This document shows positions 26,429-46,738 of a DNA stretch of 64,000 nucleotides, piece by piece. Made by a program: the position numbers and the translations under genes. Within the stretch, counting starts at the first letter, position 1. Each line of letters begins with the position of its first letter. The notes beneath the pieces are model-generated. The model was not told where the DNA came from. It did not search any database and worked only from the letters and a program-made list of their open reading frames with translations. Source of the DNA: Hyphomicrobiales bacterium (GTDB lineage Bacteria > Pseudomonadota > Alphaproteobacteria > Rhizobiales > Rhizobiaceae); the NCBI GenBank assembly GCA_900472295.1, contig UCIA01000007.1, forward strand, positions 189,686-253,685, read 5' to 3'.

Positions 26429-28240
26429 GTGTTGAGCACTTTTACCAGCTACCAGCTCATCGCCAGGGACATTCCCAAGGCGATCGACCGCATCGAGGCG
26501 GAGCCGGTCACCAAGCGCGAGACCGACTACTACCTCGCGAATATCGGCAACGTGAAATCGGTCGACGATTTCGTCAAGAATGACCGGCTGTTCAAATATG
26601 CCATGAAGGCCTTCGGTCTGGGCGACATGGCTTACGCCAAGGCCTTCATGGTCAAGGCGCTGAAGGAAGGCGTCTCCGACCCCGACAGCTTCGCCAACAA
26701 ATTGACCGACAAGCGCTATGCCGAGTTCGTCTCGGCCTTCAATTTCGCGGCCCTGGGCGCCGATGCCACGAGCTATAGCCCGGCCCAGCAGGGCGTGACC
26801 AAGAACTATGCCGCCCAAATCGGACTCGGCTCCTTGCAGAACGGTTTCAGCTACTACAAGGGCGAGACCTCCTATTTCATCAGCAACATCTCCAACGTCA
26901 AATCGATCGATGACCTGATGGGCAACGACCGGTTGCTTACCTACGCGATGGCCGCCTTCGGCCTCGACGCCGACGCCGAACCGCCTGCGACCGTGCGGGC
27001 AATGCTGGAAGGCGGCGTCACCGATCCGAACAGCCCGGCGAACACCTCGATCAACAAGGGTTATGCGGCCTTCGTCGCCGCTTTCGACTTCGCCCAATAT
27101 GGCGACCAGGCAACGGCGCGCGATGCCGTCCAGCAAGGGGTTCCAAAGGCCGTCATGGGCGGGACCGGACTGGTTCTGGTCAAGCCGACCGCGCAATACA
27201 TCAAGGGCGAGGCCGACTATTACGCGGCCAACATCTCCAAGGTGAAGTCGATCGACGACCTGCTCAAGGACAAGCGCCTGCTGACCTTCGCCATGGCTTC
27301 TTACGGGCTGGATGCATCGACACAGACCGCGAAGCAGATCCGCACCATGGTCAATGGCGGCGTCACCGACCCGCTGAGCCCCGCCAATCTGTTGGCCGAC
27401 AAGAGCTACGCCAACTTCGTCAGCGCCTTCAACTTCGCCCAATACGGCGATCAGACAACCACGCGCGACGCGGTGCTGAAGGATACGCCGAAGCTCTATA
27501 CGGGCCTGTCCACTCTCGGCCTCATCGCGCCGAACGCGGACGCAGCCCAGGCCGAGACAAACTACTACGCCGCCAACATCACCGAGGTGAAATCAATCGA
27601 CGATCTGATGGCCGACAGCCGGCTCTACAATTATGCGCTGTCCGCCAGCGGGATCGATCCGACAAGCGTCAGCAAGGATCTGATCCGCAGGGTCTTGGAG
27701 GGCGGCGTCCGCGACCCGGACAGCATCGCCAACAAGGCCACCAACAAGGCCTTTGTCAGGCTCGCTACCTCGCTGAACTTTGAGGCTTACGGAGAAGTGG
27801 CGACCACGCGCAGCGCCTCGCAGCAGCCGGTCGTCGACAAATACATGCGCCAGACGCTGGAAGAGGATGCCGGCAAGACCAATGAAGGCGTGCGGCTGGC
27901 GCTCTATTTCGAGCGCAAGGCGCCTGGTATCACCAACTGGTACGACGTGCTGGCCGACACGGCGCTCGCCAGTGTCGTGCGCACCGCGATCGGCCTGCCC
28001 GATTCCTTCGCCACCGCCGATATCGACAAGCAGGCGCAGGCCTTCGAGGCAAAGCTCGACCTCACCGACTTCACCGACCCGGCCAAGCTTGCGAAATTCC
28101 TGACCCGCTTCACCAGCCTGTGGGAAATCAACCATCCAACCTCGACCGCCCAGACATCGATCGGCGTGCTGTTTGCCCAACCGACCAGCGTGGGCATCTC
28201 GACCGATCTGATGATGGCCATGCAGAAACTGAAGTTCTGA
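26429..28240 (+). CDS. DUF1217-repeat flagellar-cluster protein
   Basis: A 603-residue protein with four repeats of a DUF1217-type unit of about 120 residues. Each contains a Y-Y/F-x-x-N-I-x-x-V-K-S-I-D-D core followed by R-L-x-x-Y/F-A and GGVxDPxSxAN. The repeats start near residues 32, 148, 266 and 371, and a degenerate fifth unit lies at about 485-570. No signal peptide or membrane helix is visible. The start is GTG with GGAGG six bases upstream. It ends seven bases before flgF. Homologues occur at this place in rhizobial flagellar clusters but the function is unknown; the repeats suggest a filamentous or hook-associated structural or scaffold part. Confidence 0.88.
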   Translation: MLSTFTSYQLIARDIPKAIDRIEAEPVTKRETDYYLANIGNVKSVDDFVKNDRLFKYAMKAFGLGDMAYAKAFMVKALKEGVSDPDSFANKLTDKRYAEFVSAFNFAALGADATSYSPAQQGVTKNYAAQIGLGSLQNGFSYYKGETSYFISNISNVKSIDDLMGNDRLLTYAMAAFGLDADAEPPATVRAMLEGGVTDPNSPANTSINKGYAAFVAAFDFAQYGDQATARDAVQQGVPKAVMGGTGLVLVKPTAQYIKGEADYYAANISKVKSIDDLLKDKRLLTFAMASYGLDASTQTAKQIRTMVNGGVTDPLSPANLLADKSYANFVSAFNFAQYGDQTTTRDAVLKDTPKLYTGLSTLGLIAPNADAAQAETNYYAANITEVKSIDDLMADSRLYNYALSASGIDPTSVSKDLIRRVLEGGVRDPDSIANKATNKAFVRLATSLNFEAYGEVATTRSASQQPVVDKYMRQTLEEDAGKTNEGVRLALYFERKAPGITNWYDVLADTALASVVRTAIGLPDSFATADIDKQAQAFEAKLDLTDFTDPAKLAKFLTRFTSLWEINHPTSTAQTSIGVLFAQPTSVGISTDLMMAMQKLKF

Positions 28241-28247
28241 GAGCACC

Positions 28248-28973
28248 ATGCAGGATAGCCTTTACGTCGCCCTTTCCTCGCAGATCGCGCTCGAGCGCCG
28301 TCTCGACACCATCGCCGACAACGTCGCCAACGCCTCGACCATCGGCTTTCGCGCCACCGGCGTGAAATTCGAGGATGTCGTTTCCGGCACAGGCCCCAAA
28401 TCCGTGTCCTTCGCGTCCACCGGCAAGACCTATTTGTCCGGCGCGCATGGCGCGATGACGCAGACCGGCAACCCGTTCGATTTCGCCGTCCAGGGCGACG
28501 CCTGGTTCGGCATCGATACGCCGGCCGGCACCGTGATGACGCGCGACGGACGTTTTTCGATGAACGAGAACGGCGAGCTGATGTCGCTCGAAGGCCATCC
28601 AGTGCTCGATGCCGGCGGCGCGCCGATCCAGCTCGACCCACGCGACGGACCGCCAAAGGCGGGCGCCGATGGATCGCTGCGCCAGGGCGACAAGCTTGTC
28701 GGCGCCATCGGCCTGTTCAATTTCGACCCCGGCCCGAATTTCGTCCGCTACGGCAATTCGGGCATCGTCCCGTCACGCGCGCCCGAGCCGGTCACCGACC
28801 GCTCCGATCTCGGCGTCGCGCAAGGCTTTGTCGAGGAATCCAACGTCAACCCGGTGCTGGAGATGACCCGCCTGATCATGGTCCAGCGCGCCTTCGAGAA
28901 CACGGCCGCACTGATGCGCCAGACCGATGCCACGACCGACGACGCCATCAAGACGCTCGGCTCCAAGTCGTAG
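28248..28973 (+). CDS. flgF: Flagellar basal-body rod protein FlgF
   Basis: A 241-residue proximal rod protein. It has the N-terminal rod motif (LDTIADNVANASTIGFRATG) and a C-terminal FlgE/FlgG-like segment (VEESNVNPVLEMTRLIMVQR then AFENTAAL). It is exported through the flagellar apparatus, so it has no Sec signal. It lies between the DUF1217 gene and fliI in one operon. Confidence 0.93.
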   Translation: MQDSLYVALSSQIALERRLDTIADNVANASTIGFRATGVKFEDVVSGTGPKSVSFASTGKTYLSGAHGAMTQTGNPFDFAVQGDAWFGIDTPAGTVMTRDGRFSMNENGELMSLEGHPVLDAGGAPIQLDPRDGPPKAGADGSLRQGDKLVGAIGLFNFDPGPNFVRYGNSGIVPSRAPEPVTDRSDLGVAQGFVEESNVNPVLEMTRLIMVQRAFENTAALMRQTDATTDDAIKTLGSKS

Positions 28974-28977
28974 CGGC

Positions 28978-30399
28978 ATGTCGGGCAGCAGATCATCGAT
29001 ACGCGCGCTTGAGCGGCAGCGGGAAGCAGCACCGGAAAACCGGCTGGCTGCGCTGGAGCGTATCTGGCGGCGCTTCGACGATACCGAGACGCTGCTACGG
29101 CGTGGTGGCCGCGTCGCCGAAATTTCGTCGACGCATTACACGGTGCGCGGCCTTTCTGAAATCGCCAGGCTGGGTGACCTTGTCGAGCAGCGCGGCCAGG
29201 CCGGCACGCGCCGCGGCGAGATCGTCAGGATCGGCCGCGACGAGGTCGTCATCGCGCCTTTCGAACGCAGCGCCGATGCCGGCATTGGCGACGCCGTGTT
29301 TCGCCGCGGCCCGTTGGTCGTGACGCCGCACGCTTCATGGCGCGGACGCGCCATCGATGCGCTGACCCGCGTCATCGACGGCGGTCCAGCCTTGATCCGA
29401 GACGGCGAAGCGGCAAGCGGCGACGGCACGACGCCGGGCGCCATGGCGCGGCAGCGCGTCGGCACCGCCTTCACCACCGGGGTCAAGGTCATCGACATCT
29501 TCACCCCGCTCTGCTTCGGCCAGCGCCTAGGTGTCTTTGCCGGTTCCGGCGTCGGCAAATCGACGCTGCTGGCCATGCTGGCAGGCGCCGATGCCTTCGA
29601 CACCGTCGTCGTGGCGCTGATCGGCGAACGCGGCCGCGAGGTGCGCGAATTCCTCGAAGACACGATCGGCGCAGAGAGCATGGCCAAGACCGTCGCCGTC
29701 GTGGCCACCAGCGACGAGAGCGCCATGATGCGCCGGCGCGCGCCCGACACCGCCATGCGCGTCGCCGAACATTTTCGCGACCAGGGCCACCGCGTGCTGC
29801 TGGTTCTGGATTCGATCACCCGCTTTGCCCATGCGCTGCGCGAAGTGGCGACCGGCACCGGCGAGCCGCCGGTGGCGCGCGGCTACCCCGCTTCGGTCTT
29901 CACCGACCTGCCCAAGCTGCTCGAGCGCGCCGGACCGGGCGCCGAAGGCCCTGGGGTCAAAGGACAGGGCTCGATCACCGCCATCATCTCCGTGCTGGTC
30001 GACGGCGACGACCACAACGATCCGGTCGCCGATTCGGTTCGCGGCATTCTCGACGGCCATGTCGTGCTCGACCGCGCCATTGCCGAACAGGGCCGCTATC
30101 CGCCAGTCAATCCGCTGTCATCGATCTCGCGCCTTGCCGACAAGGCATGGAGCCCCGAGCAGCGCATGCTGGTGACGAGGCTGAAGTCGATGATCTCGCG
30201 CTTCGAGGACACACGCGACATCCGCCTGCTCGGCGCCTATCAGGGCGGCGCCGATGCCGAACTCGACATTGCCGTGCGCCAGGTGCCGCTGATCTATGAA
30301 GCCCTGACGCAATCGCCCAGGGATCGCGCCTCGACTGATGCGTTCTCCGACCTCGCCCGTCATCTGAAAGGCAAGCAAAGTGTCGACGCCGGAGACTGA
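28978..30399 (+). CDS. fliI: Flagellum-specific export ATPase FliI
   Basis: A 473-residue F1-beta-like ATPase that drives flagellar protein export at the membrane with FliH. Walker A is GSGVGKS (residues 189-195), Walker B is VLLVLDSITRFAHALR, and the family signature is PPVARGYPASVFTDLPKLLE. I chose the ATG at 28978, four bases after flgF stops. The 3' end overlaps the next gene by 20 bases. No fliJ is evident nearby, although the N-terminal coiled coil of the next product is at that position. Confidence 0.95.
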   Translation: MSGSRSSIRALERQREAAPENRLAALERIWRRFDDTETLLRRGGRVAEISSTHYTVRGLSEIARLGDLVEQRGQAGTRRGEIVRIGRDEVVIAPFERSADAGIGDAVFRRGPLVVTPHASWRGRAIDALTRVIDGGPALIRDGEAASGDGTTPGAMARQRVGTAFTTGVKVIDIFTPLCFGQRLGVFAGSGVGKSTLLAMLAGADAFDTVVVALIGERGREVREFLEDTIGAESMAKTVAVVATSDESAMMRRRAPDTAMRVAEHFRDQGHRVLLVLDSITRFAHALREVATGTGEPPVARGYPASVFTDLPKLLERAGPGAEGPGVKGQGSITAIISVLVDGDDHNDPVADSVRGILDGHVVLDRAIAEQGRYPPVNPLSSISRLADKAWSPEQRMLVTRLKSMISRFEDTRDIRLLGAYQGGADAELDIAVRQVPLIYEALTQSPRDRASTDAFSDLARHLKGKQSVDAGD

Positions 30400-31549
30400 G
30401 CGCCAATACACCGAGCGGCTTTTGCGCGAGATGCTCGCCGAGGCCAGCGCTGCCGAGGAGGCCCGGGCCAACGAAGCAAGGGCAGCCAGGGCAAAGGTCG
30501 ATCGCGACAAGATCGCGAAGGCCGAAGCTATTCTGGCCAGGGCCGCGAGGCCATTCTTGCCGAGAGTTGCCACGCCTGCGTTGCGCAGCCTGCCCGAACC
30601 TGCCTTGCTCAGCTCGCCCGACTCTGCCCTGCCGAGCGTAGCCAGTCTTGCCTCGCCGGGCATGGGTGAGCCATCCACGCCCAGCGCGTTCAGGCTCGCC
30701 TTGGTCGGTGCGCCCAAGGTTGCCTTTCGCAGTCTGACCAGGCTTGCATCGCGAAGCGTGGCCAAGCGGGCCGCGCGCAAGGTAGCCAAACTTCCCTCTC
30801 GCGGCACAGACGACAGTCCTGCCTTGCAAAGCGAAGCCAATCCCGCGTCACGCAGACCAGTCGAACCTGCATTGCACAACGTCGCCAAGCCGGCCTTCCC
30901 CACAGCAGCCAGGCCCGCTCTTCCCAGCCTGGCCAGGCCGAGCGCTCCTTCTGCCGAACTCAATGAGGCGATCGCGGCCAGTCGTGACTCGCTTCTCGAC
31001 GGGCTCTTTCCCGACGTCGACTGGCCTCAGCCGCCAAGGGCGCAGTTTCCGAAGGTAAAAAAGAAAGATGACCGCCGCAGCGATATCGTCTTCGCCGCGC
31101 TGGGCATCACGCTCGGCCTGATCTGCGCGCTGTTTCCCTGGTACATCTTCTTCAATCAGGACCAGTTTGGCGTGCAGGCGATGAAGTTCGGCGGCAGCGG
31201 CACCAATGCCGGTCGGGTCAGCGGCGGCTCGCAGATGGAGAATACCAGCCAGCCGCTGACGGCAAACGATGTTCCCGATGTCGACCTGTTCGCCACCGGC
31301 ACGCTGCAGGACCCCGAGGACAAGACCCAGGCTCCAGGACTCGAAGAGCAGCCGTTCCCGGCCGATCCCAAATTCCGCATGGTTCATGTCGCCAACGGGC
31401 GCGCCATGATCCAGGACGATGCCGGCCTGTGGATCGTCCAGCGCGGTTCGAAGTTGCCCGACTCCAGCATTGTCTCATCGATCGAGCAGCGCGGCGGAAA
31501 GTGGGTCATGGTCACCAGCACCGACCAGGTCATCGAACTCTCCAAATAG
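30380..31549 (+). CDS. Membrane protein with 17-unit octapeptide repeat, in the fliI operon
   Basis: A 389-residue protein I cannot assign to a named family. From a GTG start overlapping fliI by 20 bases it has four parts. Residues 1-57 are a charged Ala/Glu/Lys helix, probably a coiled coil. Residues 58-194 are 17 degenerate octapeptides with rough consensus P-A-L-x-S-x-A-K/R, encoded by 24-base units at 30551-30961 with one extra codon after unit 11. A single membrane helix lies at about 235-258 (IVFAALGITLGLICALFPWY). The last part is an extracytoplasmic domain ending IVQRGSKLPDSSIVSSIEQR plus GGKWVMVTSTDQVIEL. The repeat lies on the cytoplasmic side if the N-terminus is inside. The position between fliI and flgB suggests a role in basal-body or motor assembly. 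Confidence 0.82.
   Translation: MSTPETERQYTERLLREMLAEASAAEEARANEARAARAKVDRDKIAKAEAILARAARPFLPRVATPALRSLPEPALLSSPDSALPSVASLASPGMGEPSTPSAFRLALVGAPKVAFRSLTRLASRSVAKRAARKVAKLPSRGTDDSPALQSEANPASRRPVEPALHNVAKPAFPTAARPALPSLARPSAPSAELNEAIAASRDSLLDGLFPDVDWPQPPRAQFPKVKKKDDRRSDIVFAALGITLGLICALFPWYIFFNQDQFGVQAMKFGGSGTNAGRVSGGSQMENTSQPLTANDVPDVDLFATGTLQDPEDKTQAPGLEEQPFPADPKFRMVHVANGRAMIQDDAGLWIVQRGSKLPDSSIVSSIEQRGGKWVMVTSTDQVIELSK
30551..30961 (+). repeat. Degenerate 24-bp tandem repeat (8-residue units)
   Basis: Eleven units start at 30551 and then every 24 bases, a 3-base insertion follows at 30815-30817, and six more units run from 30818 to 30961. The best-preserved units read PALRSLPE, PALHNVAK, PALPSLAR and PAFPTAAR. 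Proline or a hydrophobic residue opens each unit and Ala/Leu fill positions 2-3. The units diverge enough to indicate an old array. Confidence 0.8.
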
Positions 31550-31652
31550 CCGCGCTTGATCTGCCTGCCCGGTGCCGCGCACGTGCCCGGCCCGCGCAAG
31601 GTCCACGCAAGACTGGCGGCCTAGTCTGGTACCTACCAGCCTGGAGATTCCC

Positions 31653-32033
31653 ATGGAGCCCGTCAATCTTTTCGACCTTGCAGCCAAGCAGTCGCAATGG
31701 CTGTCGGTGCGCCAGTCGGCCATTGCCGGCAACATCGCCAACGTCAACACGCCGGGCTACACCGCCGGCGATGTCGAGCCGTTCGAAAAGGTGCTTGACC
31801 GCACGGCGGTGTCGCTGACCGCGACCCAGGCCGGCCACCTCGGCACCGCGGCCACCAATGCCGGCTTCACCGTCAAGCCCGAAGAGACCACCGGCGCCAT
31901 CATGCCGTCGAAGAACACGGTGGTGGTCGAGAACGAGCTGATGAAGGCCGGCGAGGTCCGCCGCTCCTTCGAGCTCAACACGGCGATCGTCAAAGCCTTC
32001 CATTCGATGATGATGATGGCGGTGAAAAGCTGA
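31653..32033 (+). CDS. flgB: Flagellar basal-body rod protein FlgB
   Basis: A 126-residue proximal rod protein with the rod motif [20 protein letters not shown]. The ATG at 31653 has GGAG six bases upstream; earlier ATGs would add an unrelated Arg/Pro tail. A 103-base gap separates it from the previous gene, so a separate promoter for flgB-flgC-fliE is possible. It stacks with FlgC, FlgF and FlgG. Confidence 0.93.
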
Positions 32034-41974: not shown

Positions 41975-42592
41975 ATGGCATCGGCAGCACTTTTCGACCT
42001 CTTGCCGGACTTCGGCGCACGCACGCAGCGCCCCGGCCAGTCGCCGCTCGCGGAGCCGAAGCAAGATACGCCGACGCCGCAAGCCGACATCGGCGCACTC
42101 ATCGCCGAAGCGGTAACCGACGCGGAAGCGGCCCTTGAGGCGCGCCTCGCCGTCGCCCATCAGGCCGAACTCGAAGCACAGCGTCAGGCCAGTGCAGACG
42201 AAGCAAAGGCTTTTCTGGAAAGTTTTGGTGGCGATGTTGGCGCAGCCGTTGCCGCGCGTATCGAAATTATGGAGGCGCAGGTCAGCGATCTCATCGGCGC
42301 CACCGTTGCTCGCATTATTGGCGGCATCGTCAGCGAGGATCTGCAGAAGCGCTCATTGCAGGCGCTCGCCGGCACGATCCGCGAAGCCATCGGCGACAGC
42401 GAGGCGGTGCGCATTGCCGTGCGCGGGCCGCTCTCCTTGTTCGAGACACTGAAGGCTTCGCTTGGCCCACGCGCGGCCAATCTCGACTTCGTCGAGGCGG
42501 CCGGCTTCGACCTCACTGTCGCCATCGACGAGACGGTGTTCGAAACCCGTATTGCCGAATGGTCTTCCGCCTTGTCGGAGGCCCTGTCATGA
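41975..42592 (+). CDS. FliH-like export-ATPase regulator
   Basis: A 205-residue soluble protein. A Pro/Gln-rich N-terminal region is followed by a long Ala/Glu helix (TDAEAALEARLAVAHQAELE) and an alpha/beta C-terminal domain with IREAIGDSEAVRIAVRGPLS and then AGFDLTVAIDETVFETRIAE. That layout matches FliH/YscL proteins, which link FliI to the C ring. It starts three bases after fliF and overlaps motB by four bases. Sequence similarity to FliH is weak by eye, so the name is tentative; the gene order supports it. Confidence 0.72.
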   Translation: MASAALFDLLPDFGARTQRPGQSPLAEPKQDTPTPQADIGALIAEAVTDAEAALEARLAVAHQAELEAQRQASADEAKAFLESFGGDVGAAVAARIEIMEAQVSDLIGATVARIIGGIVSEDLQKRSLQALAGTIREAIGDSEAVRIAVRGPLSLFETLKASLGPRAANLDFVEAAGFDLTVAIDETVFETRIAEWSSALSEALS

Positions 42593-43947
42593 GTGTTGTC
42601 GAGGCCGCAGACGCCAGACACGAGATCATCATCGTGCGGCGCAACCACGACGGCGACGACGAGGGCCATCATGGCGGCGTCTGGAAGATCGCCTTTGCCG
42701 ATTTCATGACCGCCATGATGTGCTTCTTCCTCGTCATGTGGCTGATCAACGCCGCCAACGAGCAGACCAAGGCCGCCGTTGCCAGTTACTTCAACCCGGT
42801 CAAGCTGGTCGACCGCAACGCCAGCCGCAAAGGCCTTGAAGACTTGGGCGACGGACCGAGCAAGGTCGCACTGACGGCCGACGACCCGCAGGACAAGACC
42901 AGCAAGGTCGGACAGGACGGCGGCGCCGCCGCCGGCACTTCGGACAGGACGAAGTCGAAGGAAGCAGCGCCGAAGACGGATCTTTCCGACGAGCATCTGT
43001 TTGCCGATCCCTATGCGGTGCTGTCGGAAATCGCCACCGACACCGGCGTCATGCAGAACGTCAGCGAGAAGGGCGATGGCGGCGCGCAGAATTCCGGCCC
43101 GGCCACCGGCGCATCGGGCGGCCAGTCCTATCGCGACCCGTTCGCGCCGGATTTCTGGTCGCAGCAGGTGGCAGCACCTGGCGCCGAAGCCACCGCCGAG
43201 CGCAGCAAGATTGAAGGCGATCCGCTGAAGCCCGGCGACAAGGCTGCGAAGGAGCAAGTGGCGCAGGTGAAGGCGGTGCCGCCCGCACCGCCGCTGACGG
43301 CGGCGCCGCTTGAGCCGCTGGCGAAATCCGCATCCGACAAGCCGCTGACCAAGGCCGAAGCAAAGGCTGAAGCGAAGGCTGAAGCGAAAAAGGCGGAGAT
43401 CGCAAAGGCTGAGGCCGGCGAGCCGCAAGACAGCGCCAAGCCTGAAGACAAGCCCGAGGTGGCGGAAAAGGCGCCGACGGCCGCTGCCGTCAAAGCCGCG
43501 GCTCAGGTCAAGCAGGAACTGGCCGACGCTTTCAAGCCCGGGGACAAATTGCACGACGGCGTCTCCGTTGAGGCCACCGACAAGGGTGTCGTCATCTCGA
43601 TCACCGACCAGCTCGATTTCGGCATGTTCGAGATCGGATCGGCGGTGCCGAGGCGTGAATTGGTGCTGGCGATGGAAAAGATCGGCCGCATCGTCAACGC
43701 CCAGAAAGGCACGATCAGCATCAACGGTCACACCGATGCGCGGCCGTTCCGCAGCGACACTTACGACAATTGGCGGCTGTCCACGGCGCGTGCGCATTCG
43801 GCCTATTACATGCTGGTGCGCGGCGGCGTCGACGAGCGCCGCATCACCGAGGTCGCCGGCTTCGCTGACCGCGAGCCGAAAATTGCAGCCGACCCGATGG
43901 CGGCCGCCAACCGCCGCATCGAGATCCTGATGGCGACCGACGGATGA
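42589..43947 (+). CDS. motB: Flagellar stator subunit MotB
   Basis: A 452-residue stator protein. A single membrane helix near residue 35 (FMTAMMCFFLVMWLINAANE) holds the proton-binding Asp in ADFMTA just before it. A long, low-complexity Ala/Lys/Glu linker includes a KAEA repeat at about 255-270. The C-terminal OmpA-like peptidoglycan-binding domain contains INGHTDARPFRSDTYDNWRL and then STARAHSAYYML. The start is the ATGA overlap with the FliH-like gene. It forms the channel with MotA and interacts with MotC in rhizobia. Confidence 0.95.
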   Translation: MSVVEAADARHEIIIVRRNHDGDDEGHHGGVWKIAFADFMTAMMCFFLVMWLINAANEQTKAAVASYFNPVKLVDRNASRKGLEDLGDGPSKVALTADDPQDKTSKVGQDGGAAAGTSDRTKSKEAAPKTDLSDEHLFADPYAVLSEIATDTGVMQNVSEKGDGGAQNSGPATGASGGQSYRDPFAPDFWSQQVAAPGAEATAERSKIEGDPLKPGDKAAKEQVAQVKAVPPAPPLTAAPLEPLAKSASDKPLTKAEAKAEAKAEAKKAEIAKAEAGEPQDSAKPEDKPEVAEKAPTAAAVKAAAQVKQELADAFKPGDKLHDGVSVEATDKGVVISITDQLDFGMFEIGSAVPRRELVLAMEKIGRIVNAQKGTISINGHTDARPFRSDTYDNWRLSTARAHSAYYMLVRGGVDERRITEVAGFADREPKIAADPMAAANRRIEILMATDG

Positions 43948-45356
43948 GGCCCGCCGCCATCATCGGCCGCGCCGTCGGCCTGCTGCTGCTGAGCGTTGCC
44001 TATCCATGGGCGGCTTCTGCCGAGGACGGCCTGCAGCCCTATCAATTGGTGCGCTCGCTGCAACTGGTCCAGGACCGCATCGCCGCCGGCGACCATGCAG
44101 CGCTGCCGATGCAGGCCAAGCTGCTGGAAATGACCGACACCAGGCTGCGCGCCGCGGACACCGAGGATTTCAGCGACCCCAAGAATTTTCGCGCGCTGCT
44201 GGTCTACGGCATGAGCGGCGGCAACCCCGTCACCGTCGAAGCAGCCGTTTCGCGCGCCAAGGCCGACGCGCAAGACCTCGCTATCGCCAAAGGCATTGTC
44301 GACTATCTCAGCGGCCGGCCGGCCGCTGCGATCGAGGCGCTGAAACCGATCGACCCGATGACGCTGCCCGCCGATCTCGGCGCCTTCCTGGCGCTGGTCA
44401 AGGGTTCTCTGCTCGCCACCGAGGAACCGGCGGCCGCACTTGCATTGCTTGACGATGCCCGCCTGCTCAGCCCCGGCACGCTTGTCGAGGAAGCAGCGTT
44501 GCGCCGCTCGGTCGCCATTGCCGCCGCGCAAGGCGATGGCGCGCGCTTCGCGCTGGCCTCGACCCAATATGTCGAGGACTACCTCTATTCGCCCTATGCC
44601 AGCCAGTTCGCCGACGCCTTCGTCTCGGGCGTCATCACGCTGCACATGGCGATCAGCCAGGACAAGCTCGCCGACATCACAGCCATGATGGATCCCGAGC
44701 GCGAGAAGGTGATCTACCTGCGCATCGCCCGCCGCGCCGCGATCGACGGCTTCGCCGATCTGTCAGCCTACGCCTCGGCCAGGGCCGAACAGGGCCGCGA
44801 CGGCATCCACAACCAGGATGACCCGCGCGCGCAACTCTATTCCAGCCTGTCCACGGTGACATCAGGCACCATCGATGAGGTCCGTGCCAAACTCTCCAGG
44901 ATCGATCGCAGCCAGCTTTCACAGAGCGACCGCGATTTGCTCGATGCCGCGCAGGCCGTGGCCGGCGAAGTGATCGCGCCGCCGGCGCCGCTGCCTGCCC
45001 AAAAACCCTCGCCGGCCGCGGCCAAACCGGAGCCGGTCAAGACAGTGGCCGCGGCAAGCCCCGATGAGCCTGAACTGCCGCTCGTCGAAGGCGCAATGCC
45101 GGAGCAGCCTGCCGCTGCATCCGACGGGACGGTCACGTCGGCACCCCAAGCGCCCAGCGAACCGCCCGTGAGGGCAAGCGCGCCCGAGACAAAGGCGCCG
45201 GAAGCACCGTCTGTCGCCGCTGCCAGCGATACCGCTGCTGTCGTGCCGGTATCGGCGCCCGCCGCTGAGCCAGCCGATCCCACCGACGCCGCCATGGCCA
45301 AGACGCGTCGCCAGCTCGATTTGATTGACCAGATGCTTGGAGCAGCTCCGAAATGA
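43944..45356 (+). CDS. motC: Periplasmic motility protein MotC
   Basis: A 470-residue rhizobial-type periplasmic stator partner with an N-terminal signal peptide (about residues 1-27, ending WAASAEDG). A helical repeat region holds VRSLQLVQDRIAAGDHAALP. The Pro/Ala-rich low-complexity C-terminus is followed by a short helix, AKTRRQLDLIDQMLG. In Sinorhizobium MotC binds MotB and is needed for motor torque. It overlaps motB and fliK by ATGA on each side. Confidence 0.92.
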   Translation: MRPAAIIGRAVGLLLLSVAYPWAASAEDGLQPYQLVRSLQLVQDRIAAGDHAALPMQAKLLEMTDTRLRAADTEDFSDPKNFRALLVYGMSGGNPVTVEAAVSRAKADAQDLAIAKGIVDYLSGRPAAAIEALKPIDPMTLPADLGAFLALVKGSLLATEEPAAALALLDDARLLSPGTLVEEAALRRSVAIAAAQGDGARFALASTQYVEDYLYSPYASQFADAFVSGVITLHMAISQDKLADITAMMDPEREKVIYLRIARRAAIDGFADLSAYASARAEQGRDGIHNQDDPRAQLYSSLSTVTSGTIDEVRAKLSRIDRSQLSQSDRDLLDAAQAVAGEVIAPPAPLPAQKPSPAAAKPEPVKTVAAASPDEPELPLVEGAMPEQPAAASDGTVTSAPQAPSEPPVRASAPETKAPEAPSVAAASDTAAVVPVSAPAAEPADPTDAAMAKTRRQLDLIDQMLGAAPK

Positions 45357-46738
45357 CCACCAATGTTGGCCAGGCCGCGCCGGGATTTGCTCCGACGAAT
45401 GCTGGAACGAAGCTGTCGGCGCCGAATGACAAAGGCGATGACAAAAGCTTCGGCGAGATGCTGCGCGGTGGTGAGAATTCGACGCCGAAAAGCCAGGGAG
45501 CGACCGAGACCGGTCCGCACAATCCGCGCTGGGCCAAACTCGTCCCGGTTGGTCCGGACAAAAACGAAACCGTACACACCGAGACGGGCAAGACGGCAGC
45601 GAAATCCGCTGCCGGAAAGGCCGCGAAAGATCACGCCGATGGTGGTCCGGACAAAGCATCCGCAGACGCCGAAATGATCGGAGAAGCCGCAGGCACACCG
45701 CCACTCCAGGATCATCTGCCATTGGTGTTGGCGCTGCATGATATCAGACATTTCTCGACGGTCAGGACAGGTGGGAACGGCGCACCAACGAATGAACAGA
45801 CCGGGCAACCGGCGCTCGACGGCGAAGCGGCTTCCGCGCAGACGCCGCCTTTGTCGCTGAAGAAATACCGCGCGGCATCGGGCGTCGAAAACAGCCTCGA
45901 CACGACGCCGCGATCCGAACGGGTCAAGGCCGCCGCGACCCAGGATAAAGGGCAAAAGCTGGACGCGATCGGACCCCAATCCGGCAAGCTGCCGCATCAG
46001 GACGGCGTGACGCTCTCTTTGCCGACGGACCAGACGGCAGGCGACGGCTCCGCGCCTGAGGCAAAGCGGTCCGCGCCAGTGTTGAAGGGCGTCGACGGCG
46101 CTCATTCCACCGCATCATCCACGCCCGGAAAACCGGCTCCGCCCGCCGGGCGCGTCGACATTGTCGCCGAGCAGAACTTCCCGACGCCGGCGCAAAGCCC
46201 GATGAGCCAGACGACTTCGGCTGTGATCGACGCGCTGGCTTCGGACAACGGCTTGCGGCAAGCGGTTTCGACACCCTCTGCGACCGCCCAGGCGGCCGGT
46301 TCTGTTGCCGTTCCGACACATATATTGAAGATCGAACTGCACCCGGCCGAACTCGGCATGGTCACCGCCAGCCTCAGGCTCGCCGGGGAGCAACTTTCGA
46401 TAGAGTTGAAGCCCGAAACCCATGAGGCGTATCGCCGTCTCGCCAGCGATAGCGAGGCCATCATCAAGTCGCTGCGCGGGCTCGGGTTCGACGTCGACAA
46501 GGTCACCATCATGCAACCCTCGATAGCAGCCCATGCGCCAGCGCGCAGTGATGCAAGCAACTCCCAGCCGATGCCGCAAGGCCGCGACCAGTCGGCTTTT
46601 CAGCCCGGGAACTCGAGCGGCAACAATGCAGGTTCGGGCGGTCAGCACTCGGGAAGAAACCGCAATGACGATGCACAGGAATTCGGCCGCCCCAGTGCGC
46701 CTGCTCGCGAGCGCGCTGGCGACGATATGTTTATCTAG
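45353..46738 (+). CDS. fliK: Flagellar hook-length control protein FliK (MotD)
   Basis: A 461-residue exported hook-length regulator, called MotD in early rhizobial work. The long disordered N-terminal part (residues 1-310) is rich in Ala, Pro, Lys and Ser. The C-terminal Flg_hook domain reads ILKIELHPAELGMVTASLRL, followed by GEQLSIELKPETHEAYRRLA and SLRGLGFDVDKVTIMQPS. It overlaps motC by four bases and the following transglycosylase gene by 74 bases. Identification rests on the Flg_hook domain and gene order. Confidence 0.9.
   Translation: MTTNVGQAAPGFAPTNAGTKLSAPNDKGDDKSFGEMLRGGENSTPKSQGATETGPHNPRWAKLVPVGPDKNETVHTETGKTAAKSAAGKAAKDHADGGPDKASADAEMIGEAAGTPPLQDHLPLVLALHDIRHFSTVRTGGNGAPTNEQTGQPALDGEAASAQTPPLSLKKYRAASGVENSLDTTPRSERVKAAATQDKGQKLDAIGPQSGKLPHQDGVTLSLPTDQTAGDGSAPEAKRSAPVLKGVDGAHSTASSTPGKPAPPAGRVDIVAEQNFPTPAQSPMSQTTSAVIDALASDNGLRQAVSTPSATAQAAGSVAVPTHILKIELHPAELGMVTASLRLAGEQLSIELKPETHEAYRRLASDSEAIIKSLRGLGFDVDKVTIMQPSIAAHAPARSDASNSQPMPQGRDQSAFQPGNSSGNNAGSGGQHSGRNRNDDAQEFGRPSAPARERAGDDMFI

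Follow-up and report, generated by a model that had tools for sequence, protein, structure and literature searches.

An unnamed gene of a rhizobial flagellar operon with a labile 24-bp repeat array and a predicted PilP/GspC/DotF-like periplasmic domain

Introduction

The described systems closest to the locus of this study are FliH, PilP and GspC, DotF, the flagellar motor of Campylobacter and the TonB/TolA-like proteins. FliH is a soluble protein. GspC possesses a single transmembrane (TM) helix and a short cytoplasmic N-terminus, as does the protein described here, and both PilP and GspC dock on secretins (GspC on GspD). TonB/TolA-like bitopic proteins likewise have one TM helix, together with a variable proline-rich or extended periplasmic spacer that joins two binding ends.

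The GxxxG repeat of FliH is variable in length, with m ranging from 0 to 12 (PMC2674601). DotF residues 207-269, which are GspC- and PilP-like, are modelled in structure 7MUC, and the C-terminal domain of DotF packs against DotH of the periplasmic ring and against Dis3 of the outer-membrane cap (PMC8486379). PilP is described without a TM motif, and the flagellar motor of Campylobacter contains the T4P-derived PflD and FcpMNO, with pieces like PilQ, PilP and PilMNO (PMC11870540). A motility screen in Agrobacterium has FliI and FlgB among its 37 proteins, none of which is recognisable, in the parts covered, as the protein of this study (PMC9812332). In Brucella, a 15-kb insert lies between fliI and flgB (PMC2743711), and the excerpted table of another Brucella study lists no such gene (PMC7410920). 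No description of the gene, or of a PilP/GspC-like flagellar protein of rhizobia, was found in a limited literature collection. The tag SMc03026, which we take to be the one of this gene position in S. meliloti, was encountered in one paper, as the label of a fliI primer.

The locus analyzed here is part of a window of 64,000 nucleotides (the whole stretch of DNA under study) and encodes a protein of 389 aa with a repeat array. A sequence-only reading of the window, which we followed up, had held that no repeat of this type is described in flagellar assembly. As worded this did not stand, since FliH, an export protein of the flagellum, has a repeat of variable length (PMC2674601), albeit one of another kind: its glycines are spaced by four and it is thought to be helical, whereas the family of the 389-aa protein gave no FliH match. 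With GspC and PilP the protein shares a predicted periplasmic fold and the anchoring in the inner membrane. However, Pfam returned no PilP or T2SSC match for 29 family members, the gene is located between fliI and flgB, and no secretin-type match was found among the 30 cluster proteins scanned (E 1e-4). DotF resembles the predicted model insofar as 7muc takes Foldseek rank 1 and VIA-align rank 2, but it belongs to another machine, where it is present in 31 copies, and the likeness is drawn from predicted structure. The Campylobacter motor shows that parts of pilus type can work in a flagellum (PMC11870540). Besides PilMNO, that motor employs a PilQ-N1 domain and a PilP-like loop, whereas the present case concerns a predicted PilP/GspC-HR-like beta domain in another phylum, and the parallel is one by description. 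The TonB/TolA-like proteins, which may serve as an analogy, differ in that their spacer is periplasmic while the array is predicted to be cytoplasmic.

Results

Gene and operon setting

The gene starts within fliI, the 3' end of which it overlaps by 20 bp, and flgB is the next gene (Table 1; the start of flgB was chosen from sequence). This agrees with the flagellar operon context given in the sequence-only reading, which had also called the protein uncharacterized, and indeed neither Pfam nor NCBIfam names it at their cut-offs. Weak Pfam names such as Cornifin (E 0.033, window protein) and TmoB (best E 0.009, 8 members), among others, were held to be chance matches. Beyond the gene itself, the Pfam scan covered 30 further cluster proteins, a subset of the ORFs of the window.

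Table 1. Positions of the features discussed (window coordinates); residue numbers refer to the 389-aa protein.
Feature	Position	Strand	Evidence or remark
fliI (export ATPase, FliI clade 3)	28927-30399	+	TIGR03498, E 2.4e-185, 616.2 bits, above cut-off
Unnamed gene of the flagellar operon	30380-31549	+	GTG start, 389 aa
Predicted cytoplasmic N-terminal helix, residues 4-55, Ala/Glu/Arg rich	30389-30544	+	AlphaFold2, mean pLDDT 93-95 for residues 11-50
Array block 1, 11 units x 24 bp	30551-30814	+	
Extra codon separating the blocks	30815-30817	+	
Array block 2, 6 units x 24 bp	30818-30961	+	
Predicted short juxtamembrane helix, residues 192-206	30953-30997	+	AlphaFold2
TM helix, residues 232-258	31073-31153	+	AlphaFold2
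Predicted periplasmic linker, residues 259-332, conserved QPFP	31154-31375	+	mostly low confidence
Predicted periplasmic beta domain, residues 333-388, six strands	31376-31543	+	PilP/GspC-HR/DotF-like predicted fold
flgB (proximal rod), directly after the 389-aa gene	31653-32033	+	PF00460 on ORF 31572-32030
fliK (hook-length control)	45353-46738	+	PF02120, E 5.4e-11

The repeat array and its descent at the DNA level

The stretch 30551-30961 consists of 17 degenerate 24-bp units, with one codon inserted after the eleventh. A strict 24-base period over these 411 bases had been proposed, and the layout of 11 units, a codon and 6 units is borne out, even though the units are degenerate: lag-24 identity amounts to 0.525 versus 0.289 +/- 0.023 (maximum 0.375) when the codons of this stretch were shuffled 10,000 times. 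Across the 64 kb, the best ten lag-24 windows listed all start at 30517-30547. From first to eighth position of the unit, the most frequent residues are P (10/17), A (13/17), L (8/17), P (7/17), S (9/17), V (5/17), A (8/17) and R (4/17). Tandem Repeats Finder detected the 24-bp period at 30575-30632 only, with 2.4 copies.

If composition is controlled for, the register is kept at codon positions 1, 2 and 3 (z 20.3, 13.4 and 8.2, respectively), and between units positions 1 and 2 are more conserved than position 3. The Leu at unit position 3 is encoded by TTG in six of eight cases, whereas TTG makes up 8 of the 99 Leu codons of the flagellar coding stretches counted. Since silent positions stay in register and TTG is favoured, the units descend from one DNA unit. 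Thus, the array is a product of tandem DNA duplication, and amino-acid bias is not its sole cause. A search of the rest of the genome for the array gave two more matches, both weak (E 0.048 and 0.148), and consequently there is no sign of a multi-locus repeat.

Weak constraint on the array

Ratios of dN/dS were obtained from seven pairs in all. In the five pairs with full arrays, the array evolves faster (0.41-0.79) than the TM helix and periplasmic part (0.05-0.18), while the N-terminal helix reached 0-0.24 and the juxtamembrane segment 0-0.40. In the two pairs that involve genome G102, the values were 0.24 and 0.33 for the array (34 and 38 array codons) versus 0.10 and 0.20 for the TM helix and periplasmic part. 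Constraint on the array is thus weak, yet above zero. Between the window and Mesorhizobium sp. WSM4306, the first 64 array residues hold 17 differences, which are spread over all eight register positions. Such weak constraint fits a disordered tether for which composition and frame carry more weight than sequence, and it is compatible with weak binding as well.

Gain, growth and loss of the array

Judged by the length of the open frame, long arrays occur in 5 of the 122 gene-bearing genomes of the genus, one of them with a broken frame. Named bearers, whose genome names were matched to our G handles through sequences, include Mesorhizobium sp. WSM4306, M. caraganae LMG 24397 and M. neociceri CCANP35. 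In G000, G064, G008 and G158, the frame is open over 393-413 residues; the other listed frames have at most 306 residues, apart from that of G090 with 309. In the draft genome of M. neociceri CCANP35 (G090/L034 and L096), the array of the orthologue contains a break of the reading frame, either through a real change or through a sequencing error.

The sequence-only reading had made its case depend on the 8-residue period being retained in close relatives. This was confirmed for the array-bearing relatives, in which lag-24 identity is 0.50-0.53, and even for the short linker of G102 (0.459 versus 0.211 at lag 21 and 0.167 at lag 27). However, the long array itself is missing from G102, although its protein is 89% identical to that of the window over the C-terminal part, and from L101, which has neither linker nor array. 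Both keep fliI and flgC. The other linkers of the genus that were read contain 0-3 unit-like segments, such as AAKPxLPR. Array length is therefore labile: with G102 short, L101 without an array and long arrays in 5 of 122 genomes, close relatives do not share a similar number of units.

Quick trees without bootstrap were calculated from upstream fliI and from the gene end plus downstream sequence (L139 and L152 were omitted for their short flanks). In both, the window, WSM4306, M. caraganae, M. neociceri and G102 form one clade (SH-aLRT 99 and 100). The downstream tree joins G158 with L101 (93) and all seven together (90), whereas the placement of G158 and L101 is not settled in the upstream tree. 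An ungapped offset comparison was ambiguous for the array of G158 (best offset 35% identity versus 31% for the next), and consequently the order of units was compared with shuffled orders. The window and G158 scored 302 versus 133 +/- 22, the window and WSM4306 382 versus 118 +/- 23, and in neither comparison did any of 2000 unit-order shuffles score as high. The common order of units indicates that the array has one origin. A single gain, followed by contraction in G102 and in the line of L101, is the simplest history, in which the direction of the length changes is inferred; transfer of the array between lines could account for the pattern instead.

Outside the array clade, M. sophorae possesses two adjacent units that are identical at 23 of 24 positions, and in M. 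sangaii two adjacent units agree at 21 of 24 positions. Such pairs capture how one unit becomes two. Other genera were found to carry insertions of their own at the linker position: a nine-residue Lys/Ala/Leu repeat of the LAELKAPLA type in G339 (L088), and more than 200 residues ahead of the TM helix in G272 and G343 (L081 and L082). Such varied insertions across genera suggest that the site tolerates changes in length.

Predicted architecture

An AlphaFold2 model of the full protein was built from 55 sequences of the Mesorhizobium group, 4 of which hold all or part of the array. With a mean pLDDT of 61 and a pTM of 0.26, its confidence is low overall. Block means of pLDDT are 81-95 for residues 1-50 and 38-50 for residues 61-190, the array region, and the array is thus predicted to be disordered. 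The juxtamembrane helix is followed by a W-P-x-P-P motif, which is conserved in the aligned rows of the genus. A coiled-coil N-terminus and a single membrane helix had been claimed to flank the array, and AlphaFold2 backs both a helical N-terminus and one TM helix. The N side of the TM helix is rich in Lys and Arg and, following the positive-inside rule, points to an N-in, C-out orientation. The N-terminal helix and the array would then be cytoplasmic and the beta domain periplasmic. If the last 100 residues were modelled alone, the same six strands were obtained (mean pLDDT 69, pTM 0.49).

Comparisons of the beta domain

With the full model, Foldseek placed 7muc_Af at rank 1 (probability 1.00, E 8.1e-3; the TM-score, scaled to the target of 59 residues, is 0.69). 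In the rows below it, Tudor domains are mixed with PilP and the HR domain of PulC/GspC. With the domain alone, 7muc was again at rank 1, most of the next ranks were Tudor domains, and these stood above all PilP rows except one pilus model. In both listings, Tudor domains are placed between 7muc and the PilP/GspC rows, and no match reached E < 0.001 with the full model or the domain alone. In VIA-align, ranks 1-9 (Z 7.0-5.3) are occupied by PilP, DotF, the HR domain of GspC/PulC and two pilus-machine chains, 3jc8_Pa and 4av2_M, which we take to be PilP. Examples are 2y4y (Z 7.0), 7muc (Z 6.9, 29% identity over 59 residues), 3oss (Z 6.2) and 6hcg (Z 5.3), although the tool itself rates a Z of 7 as middling. 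GspB at rank 10 (Z 4.3) is tied with DNMT1 at rank 11, the first unrelated row, and aligned lengths in the first ten rows, all of which we assign to the PilP/GspC-HR/DotF group, are 57-73 residues. Everything from rank 11 onwards (DNMT1 with Z 4.3, Tudor, KOW and other small barrels) was taken as generic; LspC, a GspC relative, appears at rank 17 (Z 3.7) and FlgD (3c12) at rank 35 (Z 3.2).

Profiles were made from family alignments of 19 rows (A1), 55 rows each (A2 and A3) and 29 rows (A4). In hhalign, the family gave P 1.1e-4 (probability 57%) against PilP and P 1.4e-3 (probability 17%) against T2SSC, compared with P 1.1e-5 (probability 82%) for the control of PilP versus T2SSC; 4 of the 30 T2SSC loci were left out of this test for their short flanks. 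None of 200 column shuffles scored as high for PilP, and none of 200 for T2SSC, with the best PilP shuffle (28.24) close to the real score (29.89). The PilP and T2SSC models found no match in the whole genome of the window, and PDB sequence searches with A2 and A3 returned no PilP or GspC and nothing else of relevance. On predicted models, the domain shares the small beta fold of the PilP/GspC-HR/DotF superfamily. It may be related to these proteins, for which the profile comparison gives weak support.

Distribution with flagellar genes

In the genus, the gene is present in 122 of 146 genomes and flgC in 121 of 146. The listed genomes without the gene and those without flgC were compared by name and agree except for G007, a draft of 630 contigs and 86% completeness, which has the gene and no flgC match; the remainder (4 and 5 genomes) fits by arithmetic. 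The 24 genomes without the gene and the 25 without flgC are thus nearly one set, from which loss of flagella seems to be common in the genus.

In a sample of the family, profile A1 detected the gene in 197 of 297 genomes, or 69 of 109 genera, and the broader A4 in 200 of 297, while 238 of 297 gave a FliI match (E 1e-100). A comparison of the lists by eye yielded FliI carriers without a match to the gene, namely 42 of the 238 for A1 and 39 for A4. The gene accompanies flagellar genes, although some FliI carriers of the family lack a copy that could be recognised. Co-occurrence in genus and family thus speaks for a protein dedicated to the flagellum, whereas the 42 carriers without an A1 match run against it, as does G250. 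In this genome, the gene was found by two profiles without a FliI match at E 1e-100, possibly as a relic or through an assembly gap.

In a sample of the order, 14 of 150 genomes gave a match. Five of them are from the family, and the other nine match in the C-terminal part only. The loci of seven of these nine (L245-L251) were read: in their frames of 300-400 aa, the N-terminus is of low complexity, there is an apparent TM helix as well as a coiled-coil-like stretch, and the same C-terminal domain stands at the end. Their short flanking loci gave no fliI or flgB match, and they apparently represent a second, non-adjacent use of the domain.

Discussion

On balance, we lean toward the reading that the gene encodes a flagellum-dedicated, PilP/GspC/DotF-like bitopic scaffold whose disordered cytoplasmic linker is labile in length and acts as a loosely constrained tether. 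Judging from the predicted model, such a protein would reside in the inner membrane as part of the Rhizobiaceae flagellum and comprise, in this order, a cytoplasmic helix, a variable linker, the TM helix, a flexible linker and the periplasmic beta domain. Most probably it would be a scaffold subunit that links the export side, contacted by its helix and with FliI encoded next to it in the operon, to some part of the basal body in the periplasm; function and partners are suggested by this arrangement. For the beta domain, a ring or rod protein might serve as docking site, in the way that DotH and Dis3 do for DotF. The array would then be a lengthening of the cytoplasmic linker that is peculiar to one lineage, a small group within Mesorhizobium. 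It would have grown as a 24-bp unit, present in one or two copies in related species, slipped or was duplicated, and would later have shrunk or been lost in some members; the exact length of the tether would matter little. One might speculate further that Rhizobiaceae flagella in general hold an unrecognised trans-envelope subunit of PilP/GspC/DotF type, which extends from the FliI side to a periplasmic ring and whose reach is tuned by an expandable repeat. We consider this wider claim conceivable, but rather doubtful.

The sequence-only reading had offered a spacer, a ruler or a scaffold that binds export components as possible roles of the array. Some kind of spacer is retained here, since close relatives manage with few or no units and the array thus looks like a stretchable linker. 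A ruler, or a spacer of fixed length, that sets the dimensions of hook, rod or export apparatus would suit a regular period within a protein of the flagellar operon. However, close kin range from about 17 units to none, and FliK is encoded separately (Table 1). Given the varying length and the presence of FliK, this role is very improbable, and the same observations speak against a scaffold for which the array is needed. Identity with FliK, FliH, FliJ or FliO was rejected too, as the 11 Pfam families to which 29 members gave matches (E up to 1) include none of these models and FliK is another gene. Alternatively, with the consensus P-A-L-x-S-x-A-K/R as binding motif, the units might attach to a specific partner, be it nucleic acid, membrane lipid or a component of the export apparatus, with avidity arising from many weak copies. 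The recurrence of P, A, L and S positions, the net positive charge (18 K+R versus 8 D+E in 137 residues) and a dN/dS below 1 would agree with this. Yet G102 and L101 have few or no units, other genera have unrelated linkers or a different repeat, and the differences between the window and WSM4306 strike every register position, which leaves such a function improbable.

More serious is the idea that the array has no role at all and is a near-neutral expansion, tolerated in a disordered linker until it is deleted. Its high dN/dS relative to the rest of the protein, its shortness or absence in G102 and L101, its rarity in the genus and the frame break within the array of M. neociceri all point in this direction. 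On the other hand, dN/dS stays under 1, frame and register have been retained in four genomes across substantial divergence, and codon positions 1 and 2 are more conserved between units than position 3. We hold a roleless array to be possible, but the less likely case. With a dN/dS below 1 and its register retained, the array may also have a role that depends on its sequence, a point against the loosely constrained tether. Finally, the opposite strand might be the coding one, because antisense frames are open across the array, one of them with 281 aa (30118-30963) and an 8-residue period. However, 24 bp is a multiple of three, so that every frame across the array must be periodic. Furthermore, the plus-strand frame has orthologues, a conserved TM helix and beta domain and a dN/dS below 1, whereas the antisense ORF extends into fliI and gives no Pfam match above cut-off. 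Its being the true gene is next to impossible, and we do not propose an antisense gene.

The array itself is of modest interest, being a familiar kind of linker growth and loss by unit duplication, here documented down to a pair of near-identical units. The conserved remainder of the protein weighs more: an unannotated gene tracks the flagellar genes through the genus and much of the family, and its predicted beta fold is otherwise known from inner-membrane partners of secretins. If this holds true, a new component would be added to the parts list of the alphaproteobacterial flagellum, along with a further case of building blocks common to flagella, pili and secretion systems. Since strains with and without the array exist in nature, its function is directly testable.

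Elsewhere in the window, a protein with four DUF1217-matching stretches is encoded between motA and flgF at 26429-28240, and two ORFs of the flagellar cluster at 41975-42592 and 43944-45356, located beside fliF and motB, gave no Pfam match (E 1e-4).
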